DNA of 64,000 bases, taken from assembly GCA_025617745.1 (NCBI GenBank), contig CM046867.1, positions 24,048,705-24,112,704 on the forward strand, read 5' to 3'. Source of the DNA: Heliocidaris erythrogramma. Its lineage: Eukaryota; Echinodermata; Echinoidea; Camarodonta; Echinometridae. The notes under the pieces were generated by a model, which worked only from the letters and a program-made list of their open reading frames with translations, ran no database searches and had not been told where the DNA came from. A program made the position numbers and the translations under genes. How positions within the stretch are numbered: position 1 is the stretch's first letter; each line of letters begins with the position of its first letter. This document shows, piece after piece, positions 6,490 to 51,929 of the stretch.

Positions 6490-6618
6490 TGGGGGGGGGG
6501 GGGGGTCGCAAAAGGAATGCAACATCTAATACTACTACATGTACTACTATTACTACTATTACAACTACAACTACTACTATTACTACTACTACTACTACTA
6601 CTACTTCTACTACAGCTA

Positions 6619-6650
<32 letters not shown>

Positions 6651-6762
6651 ACTACAATTACTACTATACTACTACATGTACTACTACTACTACTACTACT
6701 GAAGAGCATAATGTTTGCTTATGACGGTATTACTCATATTACTAATACTAATACTACATCTT

Positions 6763-6793
<31 letters not shown>

Positions 6794-6854
6794 CACTACA
6801 ACAACTACTACTACTACTACTACTACTACTATAAATTACTACTACTATTACTAT

Positions 6855-6898
<44 letters not shown>

Positions 6899-7013
6899 CT
6901 CCTCCTCCTACTACTCCTACTTCTACTCCTACTGATATTATTCCTACTACTATACTACTACTACTACTAATACTACTACTACTACTTCTTCTTCTTCTTC
7001 TACTACTACTACT
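6490..7013. repeat. (TAC)n/(CTA)n trinucleotide tract with G run
   Basis: A G run (6490-6505) precedes about 480 bp of imperfect TAC repeats with TGC, TTC and TCC interruptions. Long ORFs here encode homopolymeric Thr, Tyr or Leu in the three frames and are composition artefacts. The tract continues at 7736-7881 and 9111-9440; inverted-repeat elements and a LINE lie between the blocks. Confidence 0.95.
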
Positions 7014-7735
7014 ACACTCTTAGAAAAAATGGTGCTTATGGGGTACTCATTAGCTCCAAACTGGTGCCGGACTGAAAAGGTGTCTACAAGTTCCATTAAA
7101 AGGACCTTAGCCATTAGCCATTGAGCTTAGATTTCTCCACCTTTTGTTATGCGTATTAGTCTTTATCATAATCTGTAGATATTATTTAAACATGTACATG
7201 ATAATATCTATCTACATTCGTCATTTTCAAAATACTTTGGTTTGATACAAATTGTATAAATGTGTTCTATTGCATGTTGTTATAATTTATTGATTTCAGT
7301 TACTATGGATATATTGTATTTTTTTTCGAAGGACGATAAAATATTGCTCAAGAGTAGGCTACCTCTTTGCCAGTGCTCTGGGCGTTGTGACGTGCCACAG
7401 CGCCACAACTGGGCGCCCAGTGGCGTGAGCCTGTAAACCAAGCTGACGGGGCAGTTACAAATTGACTTGGGGTGCGGGTTCGAGCCCCGGTCACGTCTTT
7501 CGGATGGTGACGCTAAAGGTCGGTCCACACAGACGTAAATAATCATATCTGATTGATACACGTCTTAAAACGTCTTAAACTATTCATTCATTTTCTTTTC
7601 GTGATGAGCACCTTTAAAGGTGTCGATGAAAACCTTTTCAAAAGGTGCTTAGGGACACCCTAAAAGGTGGCACTGGTGTGGCAAATATAAGCACCTTTTA
7701 AAGGTGCTCAAACAAACCTTTTTTTCCAAGAGTGT
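7014..7735. mobile_element. TIR element (ACACTCTTAGAAA) inside the TAC tract
   Basis: Left end ACACTCTTAGAAAAAATGG and right end CCAAGAGTGT form terminal inverted repeats. GGTGC/GCACC words repeat inside both ends, for example AGCACCTTTTAAAGGTGCTC on the right. The element is about 722 bp and flanked on both sides by (TAC)n, so a target duplication cannot be told from the microsatellite. It contains a tRNA-SINE-like block at 7405-7560. The TIR is shared with 8898-9110. Confidence 0.75.
7405..7560 (+). mobile_element. tRNA-derived SINE-like block
   Basis: An A-box-like GTGGCGTGAGCCTG is followed by a clear B box GGTTCGAGCCCC (about 7477-7488), the split Pol III promoter of tRNA-derived SINEs. 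The 3' portion, GACGTAAATAATCATATC, recurs inverted near 54905. No complete cloverleaf can be drawn, so this is not a functional tRNA gene. Confidence 0.65.
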
Positions 7736-7841
7736 ACTACTACTACTACTACTCCTACTACTACTACTACTACTACTACTACTCCTACTTCTACTACTGA
7801 TATTATTCCTACTACTATACCACTACTACTACTATTACTAT

Positions 7842-7880
<39 letters not shown>

Positions 7881-7881
7881 A
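7736..7881. repeat. (TAC)n tract, second block
   Basis: Imperfect TAC repeats joining the right end of the 7014-7735 element directly to the LINE at 7882. Confidence 0.95.
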
Positions 7882-8897
7882 ACTCTAGAATTTGGACTTC
7901 CGCAGGGGTCAATAGCGGGACCCATAGCATATTCAATATATACTCTCCCTGTTGGTGACATCATTCGATATCATGGTATTAATTATCATCTTTATGCTGA
8001 TGACATACAATTATATATTTCTTTTGATCCTAAGACTCCTGGAGCTCTTGATAATGCCCTTGTTACACTTCAGAATTGTATATCAGATATAAGACAGTGG
8101 ATGGTGGTGAATAAGTTAAAATTGAACGATTCAAAGACTGAAATTTTAGTTGCTGCTTCTGCTTACAACCTGCGCAGTCTTCCAAATGTTCAGTTAGATG
8201 TTGGTGGCACACTCATAAGACCTTCAGAAACAATAAGAAACCTTGGTGTTAATTTTGATCCGTGTATGTCGATGTCACATCATATCTCTTACATCTGTAA
8301 AACAGTTACTTTTTATTTAAGGAACATTTCTAGAATCAGAAGGTTCGTCGATCAGTCTGCTTGTCACAATGCTGTCCGTTCTCTAGTTTTATCTCGTATT
8401 GATTATTGAAATGGGCTACTTTCTACGATTCCCTCTAATCAGTTGATTCGTATTCAACGATTACAAAATTGGGCAGCACGATTAATTTTACAAGTTTCTC
8501 GAGACCACCCTTCTCAACCACTCTTGAACTCACTACATTGGCTTCCTTTGAAGCAAAGAATAATTTTCAAATTACTCTTATTTGTCTACAAAATACTTAA
8601 TAACCAGGCTCCAGAGTATTTGATTAACTGTCTGAGTTTATACAACCCACTACTAAGGTCCGCCAGTGACCGTCTCCGCCTCACATATTCAGTAACTCGA
8701 ACATTAGCTGGTGATAGAACGTTTACTGTGTCAGCTTCAAAATACTGGAATAATTTGCCACTTTCTATTAGACAGTCTTCATCAGTAATAATTTTCAGAA
8801 AGGCACTAAAAACACATCGTTTTGATAGTTTATAGTTTGTAGATGATTTAATTTATTGTAAGCGCTTTGAGCCTAATGGGAAAAGCGCGTTATAAGT
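7882..8897 (+). pseudogene. L2/CR1-clade LINE 3' end, RT domain with one stop
   Basis: A reverse transcriptase of the CR1/L2 clade, cut off at its 5' side by the TAC tract. In one continuous frame it reads EFGLPQGS (RT motif around the PQG), HLYADDIQLY with catalytic YADD at 7993-8004, WMVVNKLKLNDSKTEIL, then the C-terminal block IQRLQNWAARLI and LHWLPLKQRI up to the stop at 8833-8835. The only lesion seen in the remaining part is a TGA at 8407-8409 at a position that in relatives is usually Cys, a one-base change. The short 3' UTR ends with TGTAAGCGCTTTG (8857-8869) and TATAAG, an L2-type tail. Low damage suggests a fairly young copy. Confidence 0.88.
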
Positions 8898-9110: not shown

Positions 9111-9233
9111 AATAATAATAATAACTACTACTACTACTGCTGCTGCTAGTACTACTATATATTACTACTCATCCTCCTACTACTACTCTAACTATTCCTG
9201 CTACTGTATCGCAATGTGCTACTACTACTACTG

Positions 9234-9273
<40 letters not shown>

Positions 9274-9440
9274 GCCTATACTACTACTACTCCTACTACT
9301 ACTACTCCTACCACTATTCCTACTTCTCTTCCTCCTACTCCTCCTTCTACTACTACTTCTGCTACTAGCATTACTACTAGTACTACTCCTACTACTACTA
9401 CTACTACCACTACTACTACTGCTACTACTACTTCTATTTC
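9111..9440. repeat. (TAC)n tract, third block
   Basis: AAT repeats followed by imperfect TAC repeats with TGC and CCT variants. ORFs here are low-complexity artefacts. Confidence 0.95.
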
Positions 9441-12041: not shown

Positions 12042-13280
12042 GTTCATATTTTTAACCTGTCATTATCTCACGAAATATTTCCAGATTCAATGAAAATTGC
12101 GATATAACTATCGACCCATCTCTCTTTCACCCTCCTTTTCAAAATTATTAGAAAGGGTAATATACGTTAGAATTATTTCCTTTCTGAAGAAATGTAACAT
12201 CTTTTCCAGCTCCCAGTTTGGATTCAGAGAACAGCATAACACTGTCCACGCGTTGATGTCTTTTGTCGAGAAGGTTGACCACGCAATAGATAAATCCTCA
12301 CACAATGGGCATCTTCCTTGACCTCTCTAAGGCCTTCGATACCACCAATCACAATATTTTGCTCTATAAACTTTCACACTATGGTGTACGTGGGAAGGCC
12401 TTAGAGTGGTTCAGGAGTTATCTTTCAAACAGAAAACAATACGTTTTTTTAAATTAACATTCATCAGATTTTCGTCATATCACTTGTGGCGTCCCACAAG
12501 GAAGTTTATTAAACCCGCTGTTGTTTATATTATATATTAATGATTTCTATGGATCATCCCAAGTTCTTTCCTTTATTTTATTTGCGGATGACACTCATTT
12601 ATTTTGTTCTCACAGTGACCACAAAGTTCTTCTAGATACTGTTAACAACGCATTATCGAAAATATCCCAATGGATTAGAGCTAACAAACTATCACTCAAT
12701 CTCCAAAAAAACAAATTATATGTTCTTCAGTAATTCATTCGATTCCTTACCCTCTGATATCATTTTTGATGACACTCATTTACAATGTGTTTCCCACCCC
12801 AAGTTTTTGGGTGTTATAGTAGATAGTAATTAGCTCTCGTGGAAATATCACATTGATAATATATGTACAACAATTTCACGCAATATTGGCGTGATCTATA
12901 GACTTAAATCAGTTCTTCCTCGTTCGTTATTATTAATACTTTACTCTTCCTTGATCCAACCATATTTGACTTACAACCTTTTGGTTTAACAACATATTAC
13001 CAGATGCATTTCTTGATATGTTCGTTAAAAATGATTTAATTCACAAATATTCTACAAGGCAATCGGATAAGTTCCATCTACCCCTACTTAGATCATGTTT
13101 CGCTCAAAATACATTTATTTTTGAAGGCCCTAAATATTGGAATGCACTACCCAATGAACTGAAGCCTGCCCAATCCCTTAACGTTTTCAAGAAAAGATTA
13201 AAAGAGTTCTTGCTTACTTCATACACAGCAAAAACGCTGTTTAAAATTTCGCTGTTTAAATTTGTGTTGTTTAAATTTTA
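12042..13280 (+). pseudogene. LINE reverse transcriptase remnant (CR1/Jockey group)
   Basis: Read in several frames, the plus strand gives IFNLSLSHEIFPDSMKIA, then (after a small deletion) YRPISLSPSFSKLLERVIY, SSSQFGFREQHNTVHAL, [15 protein letters not shown], GVPQGSLL, FILFADDTHLF with the catalytic FADD at 12581-12592, and the C-terminal block FEGPKYWNALP ending near 13280. The order is that of a Jockey/CR1-group RT. Frameshifts near 12315 and 12450 and several stops between 12720 and 13010 make it non-functional. The C-terminal block aligns with the minus-strand LINE at 13592-14620, so both belong to the same family. Confidence 0.88.
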
Positions 13281-13356
13281 AGCAATAAAAGACGGACCCT
13301 GCATTTCAAACAAGCGCTGTTTAAGACATCAATGATACTCTTTTAAACAACGTTGT

Positions 13357-15001
13357 TTAAAGGGGTACTCGGCCTAAACATAATATTAATTGAATGAATA
13401 GAGTAAAATTAAACAAGCAAAACACTGAAAATTTCATTGAAATCCGATAAAAAATAACGAAGTTATTGAATTTTTAAGTTTTGCATTATTTTGGGAAACA
13501 GTTCTATGCATGTCATCATGAATATGTAAATGAGTGAGCTGATGATGTCACGTCCCCACTTTCCTTTTTTAACTATATTATATGAAATTCAAATTCAAAT
13601 TCGTATTTATTTCATTTCCAACAGAAAGAAAAGACAATGGCATTACAGATATTGTTACAGAAAATATGAAAAATATATGTACAAATTCAATTTACCTTGA
13701 TAAGTGTAGAAGTACACTGTACATATATAAATACATTATTATAATGAATTATTAAAATTCTTAATTTCTGAGGAAATGTGGGGGATCCACTAAAAAGCAG
13801 TGCTTGTAATTTGTGGATCCCCCAGGGAAAATAACATCGTTTCAAATTGTGCCTACGAAGACTTGGAAAACACAAAACAGTGTTACAGAACAACAAACAA
13901 ACACGAAACGACGAGGAAAAGTAAAACAGATAAAAGAAAAAGGAACATGAACGATGGACAATGGGAAAGCAGGACAAATCATGACCGAAAAAGGAGGTAG
14001 TTATGTTGGTGATTCTGGCAAGTTGAAATCATAAGACCAAATAGAAATTCAGTAAATTGAGCAGATGATGAAGACCCAAATGGCAAAATAAGAAGATACC
14101 AGCTGTTATTAGGTTATTATTGTATATTATTATAAGACTTGAGCAAAAATATTTTTAGTTTTTTCTTAAAAGAATTTAGGGAAGGACTACTTTTGATATC
14201 TTCGCTTAAAAAGTTCCAAAATCTAGGACCATCGTACATAAATGACTTCTTCGCCAATAAAGTTCTAAAAAGTGGTAGATGAAACTCGTTTGACCGTCTA
14301 GTTGGGTAATCGTGAAATGACCGATTTTGGGGGAACATGGCATCAAATATATGTGGAAGGGTCTTTCTACTGTAGTTATACATAAATTGTCCCAAATGAT
14401 ATAGATACAGATCATTTATTTTTAATAGTCTGCTATCAACAAATAACGGGTCTGTGTGTGAGAGTATAGCAGAATTGCAGATAATACGGAGAGACTTCTT
14501 TTGTAATAAAAGTAGTCTATCTATTAGAGTTTGTTGGGTATTGCCCCAAGCAAGTATCCCATAATTCAGATAAGGTAAAATTAAAGATGAATAAAGCATC
14601 AATAGGGATGATGTCGGAAAATGAAATCTTAATTATTTCATTTTTTCATACATGTCTATAAAAAATATCTCCCTTGTAACAAAATAAGTTACAGCAATGA
14701 TAAACTTAGACATTAAATAAGGAGTCAGTCCCTTTAGTTATAGGCTTGGAGCAGAAAATTTGAATAATTGCAATTTCATATAATAATACAAAAAAAAGTG
14801 GGGATATGACATCATCAGCTCACTCACTGCATATTCATGATGAGGTGCATATCACTGTTTTACCAAAATAATGCAATACTTAAAAATTCCATAACTTCAT
14901 TATTTTTCATCCGATTTCGATGAAATGTTCAGTGATTTGTTTGTTTAATTTTACTCTATTTATTCAATTCACATTAATTTCAGGCCGGAGTACTCCTTTA
15001 A
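13357..15001. mobile_element. TTAA-flanked inverted-repeat element carrying a LINE
   Basis: TTAAAGGGGTACTCGGCCT at the left and GAGTACTCCTTTAA at the right are inverted. The inversion continues for about 220 bp (for example AGAGTAAAATTAAACAAG against its complement near 14940, and TGATGATGTCACGTCCCCAC against GTGGGGATATGACATCATCA). TTAA at 13357-13360 and 14998-15001 fits the duplication used by piggyBac-type transposons. The central part holds a 5'-truncated LINE inserted later in the minus orientation. Only the arms belong to the older element. Confidence 0.82.
13592..14620 (-). pseudogene. LINE 3' end (CR1/Jockey group), inserted in TTAA element
   Basis: The minus strand reads from about 14602 the thumb and C-terminal region of a LINE ORF2: LILPYLNYGILAWGNTQQ, RLLLLQKKSLRIIC, YPTRRSNEFHLPLFRT, YDGPRFWNFLSEDIK, ending near 14117. 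No stop interrupts this 161-residue stretch. A 3' UTR of about 500 bp follows and ends in a GAATTT repeat tail at 13590-13610, typical for a LINE priming end. The 5' truncation removes the RT palm. It is closely related to the plus-strand copy at 12042-13280. Confidence 0.88.
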
Positions 15002-15156
15002 AAAGATTGAAAATTCGCGCTAGACGGGTTTCCTTCTCCGCCAAACACGGCCGGCTTCATCATGGCGGATGCCTTTGTGGTTACAATGTTGCAGAAGTTC
15101 CAAATTAATACATTCAGAGGTAAGCATTTAGACTAAATATAATGTAATCTGATTGA

Positions 15157-15473
15157 GTTTATACTCAAGGCATATTTGTTCTGCCATGACATCTATATGA
15201 TGTCTAGATCTAAGCCACAGTCACAGAATTAATTATGATTTAGACCTAGCTGCAACTTTGCAAGTCGCCCTTCCAGCGCAGCGCAGTTTATGTTAATGTT
15301 GCACGCACAGTGAAAGCGCGCGTGGGTCCGGTCCTATAAGGTATGTGTGCAACTAATTCAAACTGCGCTGCGCTGCAAAGTTCCAGGTCTACATCATAAT
15401 TTATTTTGTGGTTATGGTCTAGATCTAGACATCATGTAGATGTCACGGCAGCACAAATATGTCTTGAGTATAA
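15157..15473. repeat. Foldback repeat of ~320 bp
   Basis: GTTTATACTCAAGGCATATTTGT at the left pairs with ACAAATATGTCTTGAGTATAAC at the right. The inversion continues through GATGTCTAGATCT, ATCATAATTxATT and GCGCAGCGCAGTTT to a centre near 15310-15340. No coding potential. It lies directly upstream of the Penelope coding trace. Confidence 0.82.
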
Positions 15474-15488
15474 CACAAGTCTCTCTAC

Positions 15489-15554
15489 ACACACAAAGAC
15501 ACAGCTTCTCCCGACAGCAAACCAGGAGTGTACCGCATACCATGTTCCTGCGGT
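15489..15554 (+). pseudogene. Penelope-like element, GIY half of endonuclease
   Basis: In the frame ending at 15554 the sequence reads THKDTASPDSKPGVYRIPCS followed by CG, matching the segment of Penelope-like elements that leads into the GIY-YIG endonuclease, with GVY at 15525-15533 as the GIY part. The reading stops at the codon GGT (15552-15554), where the foldback element begins. It resumes at 17997 with QVYIGETGRD. Upstream PLE sequence is not visible past the 15157-15473 foldback. Confidence 0.78.
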
Positions 15555-15590
15555 CATATGGCAAGCCTTATTACTATTTAAAGTGATTTT

Positions 15591-16040
15591 GTGATATCAC
15601 AAATTCGAATTTGTGATATCACGAATTCGATTTTGTGATATCACGAATTCGAATTTTTGATATCACAAATTCCCATTGGTTTATCACATAAACCCAATAT
15701 TTGATATCAAGAAATCGAATTTGTGATATCACAAATTCAAATCGTGATATCACAAAATCGAATTCGTGATATCACAAATTCGAATTCGTGATATCACAAA
15801 TTCGAATTCTTGATATCACAAATTCGATTTCTTGATATCACAAATTGGGTTCATGTGATAAACCTATGAGAATTTGTAATATGATATCACAAATTCGAAT
15901 TCGTGGTATCACAAAATCGAATTCGTGATATCACAAATTCGAATTCTAGATATCACATATTCCATTTTGTGATATCACAAATTCGATTTTGTGATATCAC
16001 GAATTTGATTTTGTGATATCTGGAAATCGAATTTGTGTAT
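15591..16040. repeat. 22-bp array of two alternating palindromes, left arm
   Basis: Ten-base palindrome GTGATATCAC alternates with 12-base palindrome AAATTCGAATTT (variants GAATTCGATTTT and others), giving a 22-bp period visible at 15591, 15613 and 15635. One stretch contains ATGTGATAAACC/GGTTTATCACAT words in inverted pairs (15680 and 15850). The matching array in the right arm is at 17615-17922. Confidence 0.95.
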
Positions 16041-16048
16041 CACGAATT

Positions 16049-16233
16049 CAGCTGTGTATTCGAGCATTAATTTAGTGCAGAAATTCAGCTGTGTATTCGA
16101 GCATTAATTTAGTGCAGGAATTCAGCTGTGTATTCGAGCGTTAGTTTAATGCAGAAATTCAGCTGTGTATTCGAGCGTTAGTTTAGTGCAGAAATTCAGC
16201 TGTTTATTCGAGCGTTAGTTTTGTGCAGAATGT
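16049..16233. repeat. 37-bp tandem array, left arm
   Basis: CAGCTGTGTATTCGAGC starts at 16049, 16086, 16123, 16160 and (as CAGCTGTTTATTCGAGC) 16197, exactly 37 bp apart, five copies. The inverted counterpart is at about 17405-17580. Confidence 0.97.
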
Positions 16234-16420
16234 AGTATAAGTTTGAATAAAAATAGCAACAGAGTTTTCGCATCCCTATCCTTCACTGGAACCGATTTTA
16301 ACATAATTTTAGACGAATTGATACATGTAAATTGATTGGCAACATATCAAGAATTCAGTTAATGATATGTTGTCAATTTAAATGAAACCCGCAATGCTCT
16401 TTCATATATTTTCGAGTTTG

Positions 16421-16730
16421 CATTGTTTAATTATATATAACTGTTTTTATTAAAAATATCACGTACAAAGAATTAATGGTTTCACTTGCATTCCTTAGAT
16501 TTATATTTAAAGCAATTAAATGGTCGCAAAATCAACTTATTTTTTTGTAAATTGGCAACATATCAGTAATTCATTGTTTAATGTATATGTATTTGTTTTT
16601 ATTAAAATATCACGTAAAAATATAGAATTCATGGTCTCACTTGCATTCCTTAGATTTATATTTAAAGCAAGTAAATAGTCTCAAAATCAACTTATTTTTT
16701 TGTAGATTGGCAACATATCAGTAATTCATT
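16421..16730. repeat. 155-bp duplication inside left arm
   Basis: The block from TGTTTAAT through TCACTTGCATTCCTTAGATT to GGCAACATATCAGTAATTCA occurs twice in tandem. The right arm holds only one copy (about 17045-17205), so duplication followed arm formation or one arm lost a copy. Confidence 0.9.
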
Positions 16731-16744
16731 TCGTGATATGTTGC

Positions 16745-17035
16745 CAATTTGTTGTTAGTCGGATTGGAGTACCGTATCATGCAGTTGCCCACGAGCAGGC
16801 ATAGCCACGTGGCCGCGCGGCCCAGCCCGGCGCGGGCCCGGTCGGTAAAATAAACACTGACTGTCGGGGACTTGCAGCCATCACCGTACAGCTACAAAAG
16901 GCCTGTAGAGACGGAGAACTCGAGCTCCACACGTGCGAAATGCAACACGTGCATGCATGCAATTCATGATCAGGGCATGGAACGTACCACTCGTAGACAG
17001 GATCTCTATGGCTAGTATACGGTACATGAAATTGG
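16745..17035. other. GC-rich unique centre of the foldback
   Basis: About 290 bp between the arms, much richer in GC than its surroundings (a GGCCGCGCGGCCC core near 16811). A short minus-strand ORF (16777-17046) partly overlaps the arm and shows no recognisable motif. It may be captured sequence or the functional core of the element. Confidence 0.6.
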
Positions 17036-17404
17036 CAACATATCACGAAATGAATTACTGATATGTTGCCAATTTACAAAAAAAATAAGTTGATTTTGAG
17101 ACTATTTACTTGCTTTAAATATAAATCTAAGGAATGCAAGTGAGACCAAGAATTCTTTTTACCTGATATTTTAATAAAAACAAATATATATACATTAAAC
17201 AATGAAAACTCGGAAATATATGAAATAGCTTGGCGGGTTTCATTTAAATTGACAACATATCATTAATTGAATTCTTGATATGTTGCCAATCAATTTACAT
17301 GTATCAATTCGTCTAAAATTATTTTGAAATCGTTTCCAGTGAAGGATATGGATGCAAAAACTCTGTTGCTATTTTTATTCAAACTTAAACTACATTCTGC
17401 ACTA

Positions 17405-17580
17405 AACTATAAAGCTCGAATACCAGGCAAGTGAATTCGAGCACTAAACTAACGCTCCAAATACACAGCTGAATTTCTGCACTAAACTAACGCTCGAATA
17501 CACAGCTGAATTTCTGCACTAAACTAACGCTCGAATACCAAGCTGAATTTCTGCACAAAACTAATGCTCGAAATCAAAGT
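17405..17580. repeat. 37-bp tandem array, right arm
   Basis: Reverse complement of the left array: GCTGAATTTCTGCAC and AACTAACGCTCGAATAC recur with about 37-bp spacing, four to five copies, more degraded than on the left. Confidence 0.9.
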
Positions 17581-17614
17581 GATTTTTGCACAACATGAGT
17601 GCTAGAATTCCTTT

Positions 17615-17990
17615 GCCATTTTGTGATATCACAAATTGGAATTAGTGATATCACGAAATGGAATTAGTTATATCACAAAATGGAATTCGTGATATCACAA
17701 ATTCAATTAGTGATATCACAAATTCGAATTTGTGATATCACGAATTCAATTTGTGATATCACAAATTCGATTTCTTGATATCAAAAATTGGGTTTATGTG
17801 CTTAACCAATGGGAATTTGTGATATCAAAAATTCAATTCGTGATATCACCAAATCGAATTCTTGATATCACAAATTTGAATTCGTGATATCACAAAATCA
17901 CTTTAAATAGTAAAATGGCTTGCATATGGCAAGCCTTATTACTATTTAAAGTGATTTTGTGATATCACAAATTCGAATTTGTGATATCAC
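17615..17990. repeat. 22-bp palindrome array, right arm and terminal repeat
   Basis: GTGATATCAC/AATTCGAATT units in the right arm up to about 17900, then the terminal CATATG junction at 17923-17928 and the 69-bp direct copy of the left terminus. Confidence 0.92.
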
Positions 17991-17992
17991 GA

Positions 17993-18243
17993 CGGTCAGG
18001 TCTACATCGGAGAGACTGGGAGGGACATCAAATCTACTTGGTCACTACGACCAATCTGCCATTATCAATCATTCTGTCTCTCGTGATCACCAGATTAACT
18101 GGGAAGACACCAAACTTGTAGCCCCCGCTTCCAACTGGTACACCAGGAGGGTCCGTGAAGCCATCGAGATTCACAAACATAACACAGTTACACAGGACAA
18201 GGGTTTACAGATCAGCGACATTTGGTTTTCACTCTTCCAATAA
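17993..18243 (+). pseudogene. Penelope-like element, YIG half of endonuclease
   Basis: After the duplicated CGGTCA the frame resumes as QVYIGETGRDI (YIG at 18003-18011). A frameshift between about 18030 and 18055 moves the reading to a frame giving SAIINHSVSRDHQINWEDTK, then NWYTRRVREAIEIH and DKGLQISDIW, ending at a stop near 18243. This is the usual order at the C-terminus of Penelope-like elements: GIY-YIG, a conserved His/Asn segment with HQINW, then R-x-x-EAI. The frameshift and the 2.4-kb insertion make it inactive. Confidence 0.82.
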
Positions 18244-18259
18244 TAACTAGTGTTATAAT

Positions 18260-18860
18260 TTTTTTCGCAGATGTTTTTTTCAACAGAATTTTGTGTTCTT
18301 TATTCTTTCTGATTTTGTCTTCACCCCCTCTTTTTTTTCCCCCACAGGTTATACATTTTTACCATTGTTCATCACCTCTCCCCCCACAGGCAACTCCTGA
18401 TGTCATCTTTTATCAACCGTTTTTTCCACATGTATTTTAACCACAATATTGCTTCCCTCAACAGGATTTCATGTTTCTCTCCTCAACTTGTTCATTACCT
18501 TTGTTTTGGTGTTTCATTCATAACATATTCATCATTAGGATACTCATTCTGATGTCATTATTTTACCCTTTTTCCACATGCATGCTTTAACCTTAATGTC
18601 TTTCCTCAACAGGATGACTTGTTTCTCTCCACAGATTATCTCCAACAGGATTTCATGTTTCTCTCCTCAATTTGTTCATTATCATTGTTTTTTCACCTTT
18701 TTTCCACAGACACACCGGTCCACTTCATTCACAACATTTTTTATTAGTATACTCATTCTGGTGTCAATATTTCACCTTTTTCCATATGTATGTTTTAACC
18801 TTAATTTCTTTCCTCAACAGGATGTCATGTTTCTCTCCACAGATTACCTACTGTCCTAAT
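18260..18860. repeat. Degenerate ~180-bp pyrimidine-rich repeats
   Basis: CAACAGGATTTCATGTTTCTCTCC recurs near 18458, 18606 (variant), 18641 and 18815 together with TTGTTCATTA and TTTTTCCACATG words. ORFs of 93-113 codons here are artefacts of the repeat. It may belong to the 3' region of the Penelope element. Confidence 0.75.
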
Positions 18861-19049
18861 CCCCCTTTTGTTTCCAGCTTATCCAGACGGTTAATCGGTT
18901 TCTTAGTCCTATTGTTCACTTGTTTTCAATGTTTCTTTTCAACGCAGGATTCGTTTGATGTTACTTATCCTTTCAATGCAGGTACCTTGATGTTATTTAT
19001 CCTTTCAATGTAGGTACTTTGATGTTACTGTTACTATTTCTTTCTATAC

Positions 19050-20245
19050 TAATTCCATGATGTTATTGTTTGCCTCCATTTTAATAAGTGAATTGCTGCT
19101 TCATATGTAAATTCTGCTGATTTATTCGCTCTTCTCATTCTCCTGACGACGAAGGATGTTATTTTGTTTAAATTAGCACACGAAGCTATGACCATTACAC
19201 ATGTTTTATCTGTGTTTAGTACAAGGCGGTTTTGATTAATCCATACCATTAATTCTTCCAATGCGAAAGATTTTGTTCAACCTCAGCTCCGCTACCTCCA
19301 CTTACAGTTAAAGTGGTATCGTCCGCATACATATCAACATAACCATCATATATACAATTTGGTAAAGTATTTACATAGATGGAGAATAATAACGGACCTA
19401 ATATAGATCCCTGTGGTACGCCCATCAATACAGTTAATGGATTAGAATTAGCACCTGTTCATGACCTGTTAAATATGTTCTGAACCATGAAGATTGTGAT
19501 CAACTGTGTCAAATGTTTTACGAAGATCTATGAAAGCGACTCCAGAGATCTCTCCGTTTTCAATGTTCCATGAAAAATTATTCACAAATTTCATTAGTGC
19601 TGTTCAAGTAGAATGTTTTCTCGAAACCAGACTGACTGGAGTTCAATATATTATCACCAATGAATTCAGAAAGTTGGCGATGTACAGCCCTCTCTATGAT
19701 TTTGCTAACAACAGACAAAATAGAAATTGGGCGTTAATTACTTGGATCGGACATATCAACAGCTTTAAAAATTGGAATTACTCGAGCTTTTTCCTAACCC
19801 TTGGGTATACACATCCCGTGGTCAAAGATGTATTTATGATATCGGTTAACGATTCCGCTATCACATGTTTCGTCATTTTTAGAAGACGACAAAAAATGTG
19901 GTCATCTTCAGTAGCTTTATCTTTACACATGCGATCAATTTCCTTAATGACGAAATCCTCAGACACACAGTCCATATCAAATTGTGAGATAGGATTATTC
20001 GGAATATCGTCATAGATATGAGATTCAGTTCTAGAACTTCAGGTTTTTTGTTATATTGGCAGCACAGGGAGTAAAAAAGTTCTTGAACGCATCAGCTATT
20101 TTAGGTGGATCTAACATACAACATGTACAAGCACCATCAATTTCCATACTATGCGGCGATATCTTGCTGAATTTTGGAATTACTCGTTTCAGACACTTCC
20201 ATATATTCCGAGAATTTCCATGATTTCCTTTAGTAAAGTAACAAT
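19050..20245 (-). pseudogene. Decayed LINE reverse transcriptase
   Basis: The minus strand reads, from high to low coordinates, NIWKCLKRVIPKFS, PPKIADAFKNFFTPCAANI, then the N-terminal RT block (IKEIDRMCKDKATEDDHIFC, LTDIINTSLTTG), then GVAFIDLRKTFDTVDHN near 19530, a degraded YADD region near 19325 and WINQNRLVLNTDKT near 19230-19190. The order is that of a Jockey/CR1-type RT. Many stops and frameshifts are present, and the catalytic aspartates cannot be read intact. A 169-codon plus-strand ORF at 19506-20015 is only the antisense of this relic. Confidence 0.82.
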
Positions 20246-27211: not shown

Positions 27212-27785
27212 TGTCATAAATAAATTTATTCAATTTGTCTCCAACGGCCCACAAGGGGGTGACACACGCTACTGCTGTGTGATAGGTTGCCCGGGTGCTG
27301 TGAAAAAAATCACAGGCGGAACCGGGCGGGATTCGAATCCGCGACCTCTGGATTACTAGACCAGTGTCATAACCACTAGACCACCGGAGTGCCCTGAGTG
27401 ATCAGGTTCAAACTATCCCAATATGGGGACTATCAAGTCAAAGGTATTGAATTAATCCGTCGGGTGATATAATGTCATAAATAAATTTATTCAATTTGTC
27501 TCCAACGGCCCACAAGGGGGTGACACACGCTACTGCTGTGTGATAGGTTGCCCGGGTGCTGTGAAAAAAAATCACAGGCGGAACCGGGCGGGATTCGAAC
27601 CCGCGACCTCTGGATTACTAGACCAGTGTCATAACCACTAGACCACCGGAGTGCCCTGAGTGATCAGGTTCAAACTATCCCAATATGGGGACTATCAAGT
27701 CAAAGGTATTGAATTAATCCGTCGGGTGATATAATGTCATAAATAAATTTATTCAATTTGTCTCCAACGGCCCACAAGGCCCACG
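27212..27785 (-). mobile_element. tRNA-Thr-like SINE, tandem 2.2 copies
   Basis: A 261/262-bp unit starts at 27212, 27473 and 27735 (third copy cut after ~48 bp). The two full units differ by a few bases. On the minus strand each has a tRNA-like head (27315-27393 and 27576-27655) with A box GGTCTAGTGGTTATGAC, an anticodon loop CTAGTAA that would present AGT (Thr), and B box GGTTCGAATCCC or GGTTCGAACCC-like. A body with CTGTGATTTTTTTCACAGC follows. The acceptor stem does not close, and the head merges into a SINE body, so these are not tRNA genes. Confidence 0.82.
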
Positions 27786-33079: not shown

Positions 33080-33445
33080 GGCCTAATGACCGATTTTAGG
33101 ACAACTATACCTCTGGAAAATTACCCCGGACAGCTAAACCCGGACAGCTACCCCCTGGACAACTACCCCCTATGACAATTACACCCTAGGACAACTACCC
33201 CCAGGGCAGCTAGCCCCCCTCCCCCGACAATTACCCCCAGGAAAACTTACCCCTTAAAATGATGATTACCCCGACAACCCCCCCCCCCCCCCGGACAACT
33301 ATTCCCTGGTCAATTATCCCATAGGCATAATCCAGGGTTAGCTGTCCTGGGATAGTTGTCCGGGAGGGGGGTAGTTGTCCTGGGGGTAGTTTTCCAGGGG
33401 GTAGTTTTCCAGGGGGTAGTTATCCTACAACCGGTCATTGGAAAA
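33080..33445. repeat. Inverted minisatellite (GGACAACTACCCCC)
   Basis: Degenerate GGACAACTACCCCC units run on the plus strand to about 33340 and the complement GGGGGTAGTTGTCC on the other side to 33425. AATGACCGATTTTAGGA at the outer left pairs with TCCTACAACCGGTCATT at the outer right, so the whole locus is a foldback built of minisatellite. Confidence 0.85.
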
Positions 33446-50825: not shown

Positions 50826-51311
50826 TTACATTTCCCACTGTTTCTTACAAAAAGAGATCGTGAAAACATCGTGCCATTCTTGCGGGCATCTTAAGCCATC
50901 GTATGACCGCCGGTGGAGTTTCTTAGGCTCCGGCAGCAACTTCGTGTGCGGTGGCAAAATCTTTGGCATGTCAAAAAATTGCCCGAGGACCTTGTGAACG
51001 TTAATTTTCGTGTTGAATTCATGTGTCCATTTTGCCCTTTGTAAGGCCATCGTGAGGGCATCTTGTCAAATCGTGTGATCTTCGTCTTTACTTCGTGTGA
51101 TCATCAGTGCCGTCGGGCATTTTTCGCCTCACGAAGACAATAGGAAGGAAACAAGAAGCTGTCCGATTGTCATAGGAAGGCAACACGATTACGTGAAGCC
51201 CTCGCAATGCCTGCGTGTAGCCTTCGTATTATAGTCCGATGACATCGCGATAGGATCACGGTGTCGACGAAGACAGCCGAATTTGAGTAGCTCAAGCGTT
51301 CCCCATATGTA

Positions 51312-51861
51312 CGGAAGCTTATGTGCCAACCAGATGACGAGATAAGAAGGCGAGAAAACAGGTTAAATGACTAGAAGACGAGATAAGAAGACGAGAAGAC
51401 AAGATAAATGACGATAAGACGAGTTGTTGCAACTCGGCAAGTCGACTTCTGGACAAGAAGTCGAAAAGACAAGTTGTTGGAACTTGGCATGCCAACATAT
51501 TTGAGATAAAAATCGGAGAAGACAAGTTGTTGGAACTCTGCAAGTCGACATATTTTGGACAAGAAGATCAGCGAATCGACTTGTTTAGGACAAGAAGATA
51601 AGATGAAAAGCTAATTCAACTTGGCAAGTCGTCATCTCGTCTTCTTGTCCCAAACAAGTCGACTTGCCGAGTTCCAATAACTCGTCAACTCGTCTTCTTG
51701 TATCAAACAAGTCGACTTCCCGAGTTTCAACAACTCATCATCTTGTCTTCTCATCTTATACCAGTCGAGTTGCCGAGTTCCAAATAACTCGTCTTCTCGT
51801 AATTTTAACTTGTATTCTCGTCTTCTTATCTCGTCATCTGGTTGGCACTTATCAGCTTCGG
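51312..51861. mobile_element. Foldback built from GACGAGAAGAC/TCGTCTTCTCG words
   Basis: AAGCTTATGTGCCAACCAGAT (51314 on) pairs with ATCTGGTTGGCACTTATCAG and GCTT at the right end near 51835-51857. Between, ACGAGATAAGAAGACGAGAAG and CAAGTTGTTGGAACT words on the left turn into their complements on the right after about 51600. Confidence 0.82.
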
Positions 51862-51929
51862 TAAGTATCCGATCAGCAATTGAATTCAGGGGTGTTGCTA
51901 GAGATGTGTGTGTGCGTGTTTAGCCGTAT

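Follow-up and report, generated by a model that had tools for sequence, protein, structure and literature searches.

The window analyzed here, a 64,000-nucleotide stretch of DNA in which position 1 is the first letter, carries a palindromic foldback element and a short tail, both lying between two copies of the hexamer CGGTCA within an open reading frame (ORF) that we take to encode the endonuclease of a Penelope-like element. The structure is a member of a young, non-coding foldback family with ~100 copies in the genome. The features of the locus are as follows, with the strand given where one was assigned.

15480 to 15556, plus strand: left part of the host ORF, an endonuclease (GIY-YIG type) of a Penelope-like element, ending in KPGVYRIPCSCG and in frame up to the insertion
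15551 to 15556: left target-site duplication, CGGTCA (duplications of the family are 6 bp long)
15557 to 17926, plus strand: foldback element from A-end to B-end, 2,370 bp (ten other elements measure 2.85 to 3.1 kb)
15557 to 15585, plus strand: A-type terminus TATGGCAAGCCTTATTACTATTTAAAGTG (193 termini genome-wide, by a pattern for both types)
15588 to 16049: left outer array of 22-bp units of two palindromes
16045 to 16230, plus strand: five 37-bp tandem units, 94% alike
16335 to 16378: inner hairpin ATTGGCAACATATCA..TGATATGTTGTCAAT
16421 to 16730, plus strand: 155-bp tandem duplication in the left inner arm
16706 to 16750: inner hairpin adjoining the center
16747 to 17031, minus strand: GC-rich center, inverted relative to the other elements
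16811 to 16822: 12-bp palindrome GGCCGCGCGGCC, at which two other copies are inserted in sister elements
17031 to 17075: right inner hairpin
17248 to 17292: right outer hairpin
17395 to 17572, minus strand: right-arm 37-bp units, 4.6 copies, 84% alike
17623 to 17896: right outer 22-bp array
17916 to 17926, minus strand: B-type terminus, GGCTTGC-ATA (most other ends read GGCTTGCCATA)
17925 to 17992, plus strand: tail, 68 bp of an A-type end and a direct repeat of 15557 to 15624, found in this copy only, within the scope of the searches
17993 to 17998: right target-site duplication, CGGTCA
17993 to 18240, plus strand: right part of the host ORF, VYIGETGRDIK..., with one frame change inside

The initial annotation described identical terminal direct repeats of 69 bp. 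The repeats are indeed exact but one base longer, positions 15555 to 15624 being equal to 17923 to 17992 over 70 bp without any leftward extension. They reach this length because the CA that precedes the left terminus recurs at the inner edge of the tail. This CA (15555 to 15556) is also part of the target-site duplication, and the element proper begins at 15557 with TATGG. On the right, element and tail overlap by a common TA, and the tail sits within the target-site duplication, between the two copies of CGGTCA. The GCATA with which the B-terminus of the window copy closes is found in no other end among those listed. No second copy of the element was detected in the 64-kb window, where the other BLAST matches spanned at most 37 bp (E values of 0.13 to 0.46).

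Architecture of the arms and center

The large inverted repeat with visibly differing arms that had been noted from the sequence was confirmed by aligning the left arm with the reverse complement of the right arm, which gave 87.7% identity (795 of 906 aligned bases), with indels. The GC-rich center was also borne out, at 285 bp (previously 290 bp) and 54% GC. The outer arrays have a period of 22 bp, with ~20.9 copies on the left and 12.6 on the right, and contain 20 occurrences of GTGATATCAC and 8 of AATTCGAATT, whose perfect dyads are often spaced by 11 or 22 bp. There is a tendency for the two palindromes to alternate, and where both are perfect, 11 bp separate their dyads. Of the 10- and 12-base palindromes said to alternate every 22 bp, the period stands, but many units depart from strict alternation. 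The 37-bp tandem units had been called exact, which they are not, the left arm holding 5.0 copies at 94% and the right arm 4.6 at 84%. Hairpins around the inner motif were recovered for four of the five in-register copies of GGCAACATATCA but not for the copy at 16551, which has no second arm.

The abundance of dyad symmetry exceeded that of shuffled sequence. The element contains 35 perfect palindromes of at least 10 bp, whereas 50 dinucleotide shuffles averaged 5.0 and reached at most 11, and when positions 15557 to 17992 were folded as single-strand DNA, the energy was -894 kcal/mol versus -229 to -271 kcal/mol for eight shuffles. An Rfam scan of positions 13000 to 20000 returned no match. 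A spacing of 11 bp amounts to roughly one turn of the helix and would place the dyads on the same face of the DNA. The repetitive arms may represent arrays of transposase-binding sites, by analogy with Galileo, in which binding was tested: the available part of that study reports that the tandem repeats in the long inverted ends of Galileo hold extra, tested transposase-binding sites (PMC3688188).

The arm plan of the window copy is that of the whole family, and a distinct center between long inverted ends that contain tandem repeats is the structure of a foldback-type DNA transposon. The center could be located in 18 other elements, and in all 18 it runs opposite to that of the window copy, the outcome predicted if inverted arms recombine. 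The 155-bp duplication, in turn, appears to be a shortened form of a repeated inner module of longer copies.

Insertion into a Penelope-like endonuclease ORF

Given that CGGTCA is present exactly on both sides and that the host reading runs without a gap across the joined flanks, the element inserted into the Penelope-like endonuclease ORF and duplicated CGGTCA. The left flank, KPGVYRIPCSCG, and the right flank, VYIGETGRDIK, share one frame across the joined site. When the joined reading was used as a query (with X at the later frame change), 16 proteins matched at an E value of ≤0.001 (best, 1.8e-32), and alignment with 7 of these 16 revealed neither a lost nor an added residue at the junction. 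Of the 16, 5 have a precomputed GIY-YIG domain (PF01541); the three homologues with a source name come from the crinoid Anneissia japonica (two) and the cockroach Blattella germanica (one). Pfam searches with the single host pieces and a 40-residue join gave no endonuclease match, and a search of solved structures with the 40-residue join gave no match either. Since the Pfam scans were blank, the ORF is named from its homologues and, in part, from motifs that we presume to be those of Penelope-like endonucleases. No relative of the Penelope-like protein was confirmed when viral contigs were searched.

The intact host ORF also bears on whether the palindrome or the tail was created by chimeric reads during assembly. 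Long relatives of the family do run into assembly gaps, but we consider an artifact extremely unlikely because the arms differ by 12%, both the duplication and the host ORF reading through the empty site are intact, and the plan recurs in sister copies on many contigs. The junction between the tail and CGGTCA, moreover, offers no homology that an assembler could use.

Copies and long relatives across the genome

The prediction that other copies exist was upheld when the 1.06-Gb genome was searched with the terminus: a pattern covering both end types and allowing up to two mismatches found 193 matches (92 on one strand and 101 on the other; none with the control), which corresponds to roughly 100 elements. 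The first 146 bases gave 380 matches (40 of 444 candidates scored), while an exact scan of viral contigs for the terminus gave none. With the window, the 29 loci that we fetched made up 30 sequences, in which 20 elements had exact 6-bp duplications, every one of them combining one A-end with one B-end. The duplication of L033 matches at 5 of 6 positions, and by the same rule no duplication pair was found in L016, L024, L025, L027, L030, L032, L034, L036, or L037. The window copy fails this rule, which looks for the duplication beside both ends, only because of its tail.

The target consensus is CGNNCG, with each of the four fixed positions matched in 35 of 40 cases (both strands counted). We also analyzed 64 further short end flanks, drawn from the unfetched ones among 100 listed of the 193 places and including two identical pairs (L072/L073 and L097/L098). 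At least three of the four CGNNCG positions were matched in 60 of these 64, a count in which the L052 flank was mis-sliced; its true flank, TGCCCG, would match three positions too. When ends were paired by coordinate, five more exact duplications emerged (L056/L057, L058/L059, L060/L061, L062/L063, and L064/L065), along with one matching at 5 of 6 positions (L054/L055) and one pair without a match (L052/L053). The copies are thus dispersed and flanked by target-site duplications, as in a foldback-type DNA transposon. Since ten elements of 2.85 to 3.1 kb are 97.1 to 99.9% identical, the family has been active recently.

Three loci, on C6, C7, and C14, share sequence from the same terminus onward (L038:145 onward, L039, L042, and L048 for C6 and C14; L040 for C7). 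C6 and C14 match over ~19.6 kb, up to a gap in C6, and C7 matches C6 over 5.4 kb, up to a gap in C7; the other ends of the three long relatives were not found before the sequence ran into these assembly gaps. No transposase was identified among 36 chosen ORFs of the long relatives, which are incomplete for the same reason. Those ORFs included one reverse transcriptase (RVT_1) and one weak HECT match (PF00632; E value of 0.0033, below the curated cutoff), the latter on C14 beyond the part common with C6.

Relationship to IS3EU, GingerRoot, and other foldback elements

In the available parts of the published accounts, TA..TA termini are a constant feature of complete IS3EU families, whose duplications are usually 6 bp long, GingerRoot is placed in this lineage (PMC10045372), and fungal IS3EU elements have TAYGG..CCRTA termini with inverted repeats of >30 bp (PMC12730594). 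Among the 21 elements that we cut at base level, the window included, 18 start with TATGG (the exceptions being TATTG in L017, TACGG in L019, and CGTGT in L021) and 19 end with CCATA (the exceptions being CCGCA in L018 and GCATA in the window). The family therefore has the 6-bp duplications and TA..TA termini of IS3EU and GingerRoot, its TATGG..CCATA termini fit TAYGG..CCRTA, and its inverted repeats exceed 30 bp. It differs from them in its very long, internally repetitive arms and its strong CGNNCG target, and foldback forms are not mentioned in the available parts of the two accounts (PMC10045372, PMC12730594).

Because no transposase was found, we call the family only IS3EU-like, a designation drawn from its ends and duplication length, the terminal letters being short by themselves. 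Movement was presumably by cut-and-paste, as the ends and the duplication suggest. A 6-bp duplication by itself is not unique, having been reported for hAT6 and being made by Polintons as well, so the family could belong to one of these or to another superfamily with 6-bp duplications; we regard this as unlikely, since the TA..TA ends and TATGG fit IS3EU. Helitrons and Helentrons were considered and rejected, given that they lack, to our knowledge, such duplications and inverted ends.

The view that no described family has this plan was too strong, as Galileo, Tetris, and Tm1 all have tandem repeats inside long inverted ends. The TU elements of sea urchins are likewise foldbacks, with short tandem repeats (15-bp unit) in the outer inverted domain and 8-bp duplications; we liken them to the present family from general descriptions rather than by sequence. 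A sea-urchin foldback is cited in the available part of the Tetris study (PMC4079207). As far as the available parts of these papers go, Galileo (P superfamily, Drosophila) shares with our family the tandem repeats in long inverted ends and the varied, rearranged copies (PMC3688188, PMC4168063), but its duplications measure 7 to 8 bp (consensus GTATTAC in D. willistoni), and the likeness is drawn from architecture. Tetris of Drosophila virilis is similarly a non-autonomous, modular foldback with a tandem-repeat domain in its inverted ends, but it has 8- to 10-bp duplications and a repeat unit of ~220 bp and was suggested to belong to the Mutator superfamily (PMC4079207). Tm1 of root-knot nematodes (Mutator/Foldback) has asymmetric terminal motifs, generally one type per end, as our family has; its composite ends carry ~14-bp repeats, its duplications are 9 bp long, and its asymmetric motifs lie outside the inverted repeat (PMC3169594).

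Duplications of the Galileo or Mutator type (7 to 8 or 8 to 10 bp) were not found here, where they measure 6 bp. No description of the present family was found in the open-license literature on foldbacks, IS3EU, and GingerRoot, and four sequence words of the element had no match in the literature. The element thus ties a foldback architecture, which the available parts of the cited work place mainly in the Mutator and P superfamilies, to IS3EU-like ends.

Distribution of the terminal direct repeat

The tail is identical to the A-ends of 10 of the 20 other elements (68 of 68 positions) and matches the remaining ten at 65 to 67 positions. In ungapped comparison with B-ends, it matched at 63 to 65 of 68 positions in 19 of 21 elements, at 48 in L019, and at 24 in the window copy, whose B-end is without one base. 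Since A-ends are near-identical across copies, the identity between the tail and the left end neither shows that the tail was copied from that end nor dates a copying step. The argument that identical repeats between differing arms imply such a step consequently fails: the family has two slightly different end types, of which the A-ends hardly vary. Opening of a hairpin at the B-end was rejected as a source, given that the tail matches A-type and not B-type ends.

The 20 duplication-flanked elements were chosen by a rule that a tailed copy could not pass, and so the privacy of the tail rests on a survey of 56 ends in the 30 sequences and on a search for the fused junction; the finding that 18 copies have no family 14-mers in the 300 bp outside either end stems from the same tail-excluding selection. 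In the survey, another end lay within 100 bp outside an end only in the window and in L011, in the latter case across a shared 6-bp duplication. An attached second end was absent from the 64 further short flanks, the nearest approach being an 11-base word with two mismatches in L072/L073. Scattered family 12-mers did occur in flanks (two in L055; one each in L051, L070, and L102; ten in L052, at least part of which reflects the slicing fault), as did 16-mers of the long relatives (nine in L052, from the slicing fault; 10 in L064; and 18 in L071). The fused B-end/A-end junction, searched as exact words, was present once in the 1.06-Gb genome, in the window only. An exact pattern of one end followed by another within 20 bases, which altered ends would escape, matched four places: the window, C14, C10, and C21. 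At the last two (C10:4392423-4392450 and C21:48396663-48396695), 6 and 15 bases, respectively, separate the ends.

Terminal direct repeats of an LTR or LTR-like kind were not found as a trait of the family. If they were such a trait, they would be renewed by an LTR-like or over-length rolling-circle step in which one end is carried twice, and the position of the tail inside the target-site duplication, where the whole stretch behaves as one inserted unit, would agree with this. The survey of 56 ends, the 64 further flanks, and the single fused junction speak against it, however, as does the outer edge of the tail, which is no terminus and falls within a satellite unit; we consider this explanation very improbable. 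Exact terminal repeats need not imply an LTR-like step.

Proposed origin of the tail

The locus probably contains a non-autonomous foldback DNA transposon with IS3EU/GingerRoot-like ends and a repair scar that was formed in one of two ways. The extra 68 bp would be this scar, whose formation is proposed from a single case. In the version that we prefer, a second family member would have inserted into the right-hand copy of CGGTCA, generating the order B-end/CGGTCA/A-end. This second element would later have been excised, and gap repair would have copied only 68 bp of its A-end before the copy was rejoined to the broken flank, which starts precisely with CGGTCA. CCATACGGT would have been lost in a 9-bp deletion at the junction; B-end plus CGGTCA plus A-end minus 9 bp reproduces the window junction exactly. 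An allele in which the second element is complete was not observed here.

Neighboring elements on C14 are arranged in the order long relative, CGGACG, short copy, CGGACG, the last CGGACG having been read from the next right-hand end (L051), which was paired by order and equal duplication. This order fits the insertion of one element into the duplication of an earlier one. The six bases between the ends read CCATA-CGGACG-TATGG on C14 and CCATA-CCCTCG-TATGG on C10, and at neither place was a duplication observed on the far side of the left-hand element.

Alternatively, template switching alone could have produced the tail if transposase broke the DNA at the B-end and the broken end, once resected, paired with an A-end of the same or another copy, was extended by 64 to 69 nucleotides, and was end-joined. 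CATATG is common to both sides of the junction (17923 to 17928), and any of the near-identical A-ends could have served as the template. In L016, the left end has been replaced by GTAAAGTGG, the sequence to the right of its own insertion site (L016 440 to 500 and 3380 to 3440), and template switching at ends therefore probably occurs in the family. Nevertheless, this route works only if the B-end lost a C or was resected with a single base of homology, and second elements at a duplication do occur, which favors excision and gap repair; we judge template switching alone to be possible but somewhat doubtful. Excision with gap repair and template switching are both repairs of a break at the edge of the element, which accounts for a tail that begins at this edge and ends precisely at the duplication. 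Of the LTR-like or copying step first invoked to renew the ends, copying during repair probably did make the extra end, but a renewal plan for the family did not hold up.

Nested copies in the center

Complete copies were nested in the center of another copy at L011 3590 to 6531 (duplication GGGCCG) and at L012 2642 to 5605 (CGCGCG), in both cases within or overlapping the same 12-bp palindrome, GGCCGCGCGGCC, which most longer copies carry at their center. Under uniform choice among CGNNCG sites, 0.001 to 0.018 such nestings would be expected among 22 insertions, an estimate that extrapolates to the genome the 85 CGNNCG sites that the window has outside the element and assumes three sites per center and 30 to 400 copies. 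Because GC and chromatin context do not enter this null and a single search turned up both cases, self-targeting is only a lead; no nesting in a center was found among the 64 further ends. A speculative and rather unlikely reading is that the GC-rich core acts as a landing pad for its own family, the CGNNCG preference leading new copies to land there or in the duplication adjoining an older copy. Were this true, harmless insertions would collect within the family's own foldback arms, nested palindromes would grow and flip, and self-targeted nesting would drive foldback growth, providing a concrete route to nested palindromes. In this young family, individual copies record how foldbacks grow, cores flip, and ends are repaired.

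Other features of the window

Two other foldback-like elements lie in the window, one with 15-bp tandem units in inverted orientation (33085 to 33440) and one with inverted arms of 53-bp units (51310 to 51863). A palindromic MITE-like element with the ends TATACTCAAG..CTTGAGTATA is located directly to the left of the Penelope-like piece (15159 to 15473). Long CTA/TAC/ACT trinucleotide arrays occupy positions 6526 to 7015, 7735 to 7884, and 9124 to 9436, the second of which runs into a reverse-transcriptase ORF (7801 to 8409, RVT_1). Finally, a 262-bp tandem repeat is present at 27212 to 27779 in 2.2 copies that are 99% alike.
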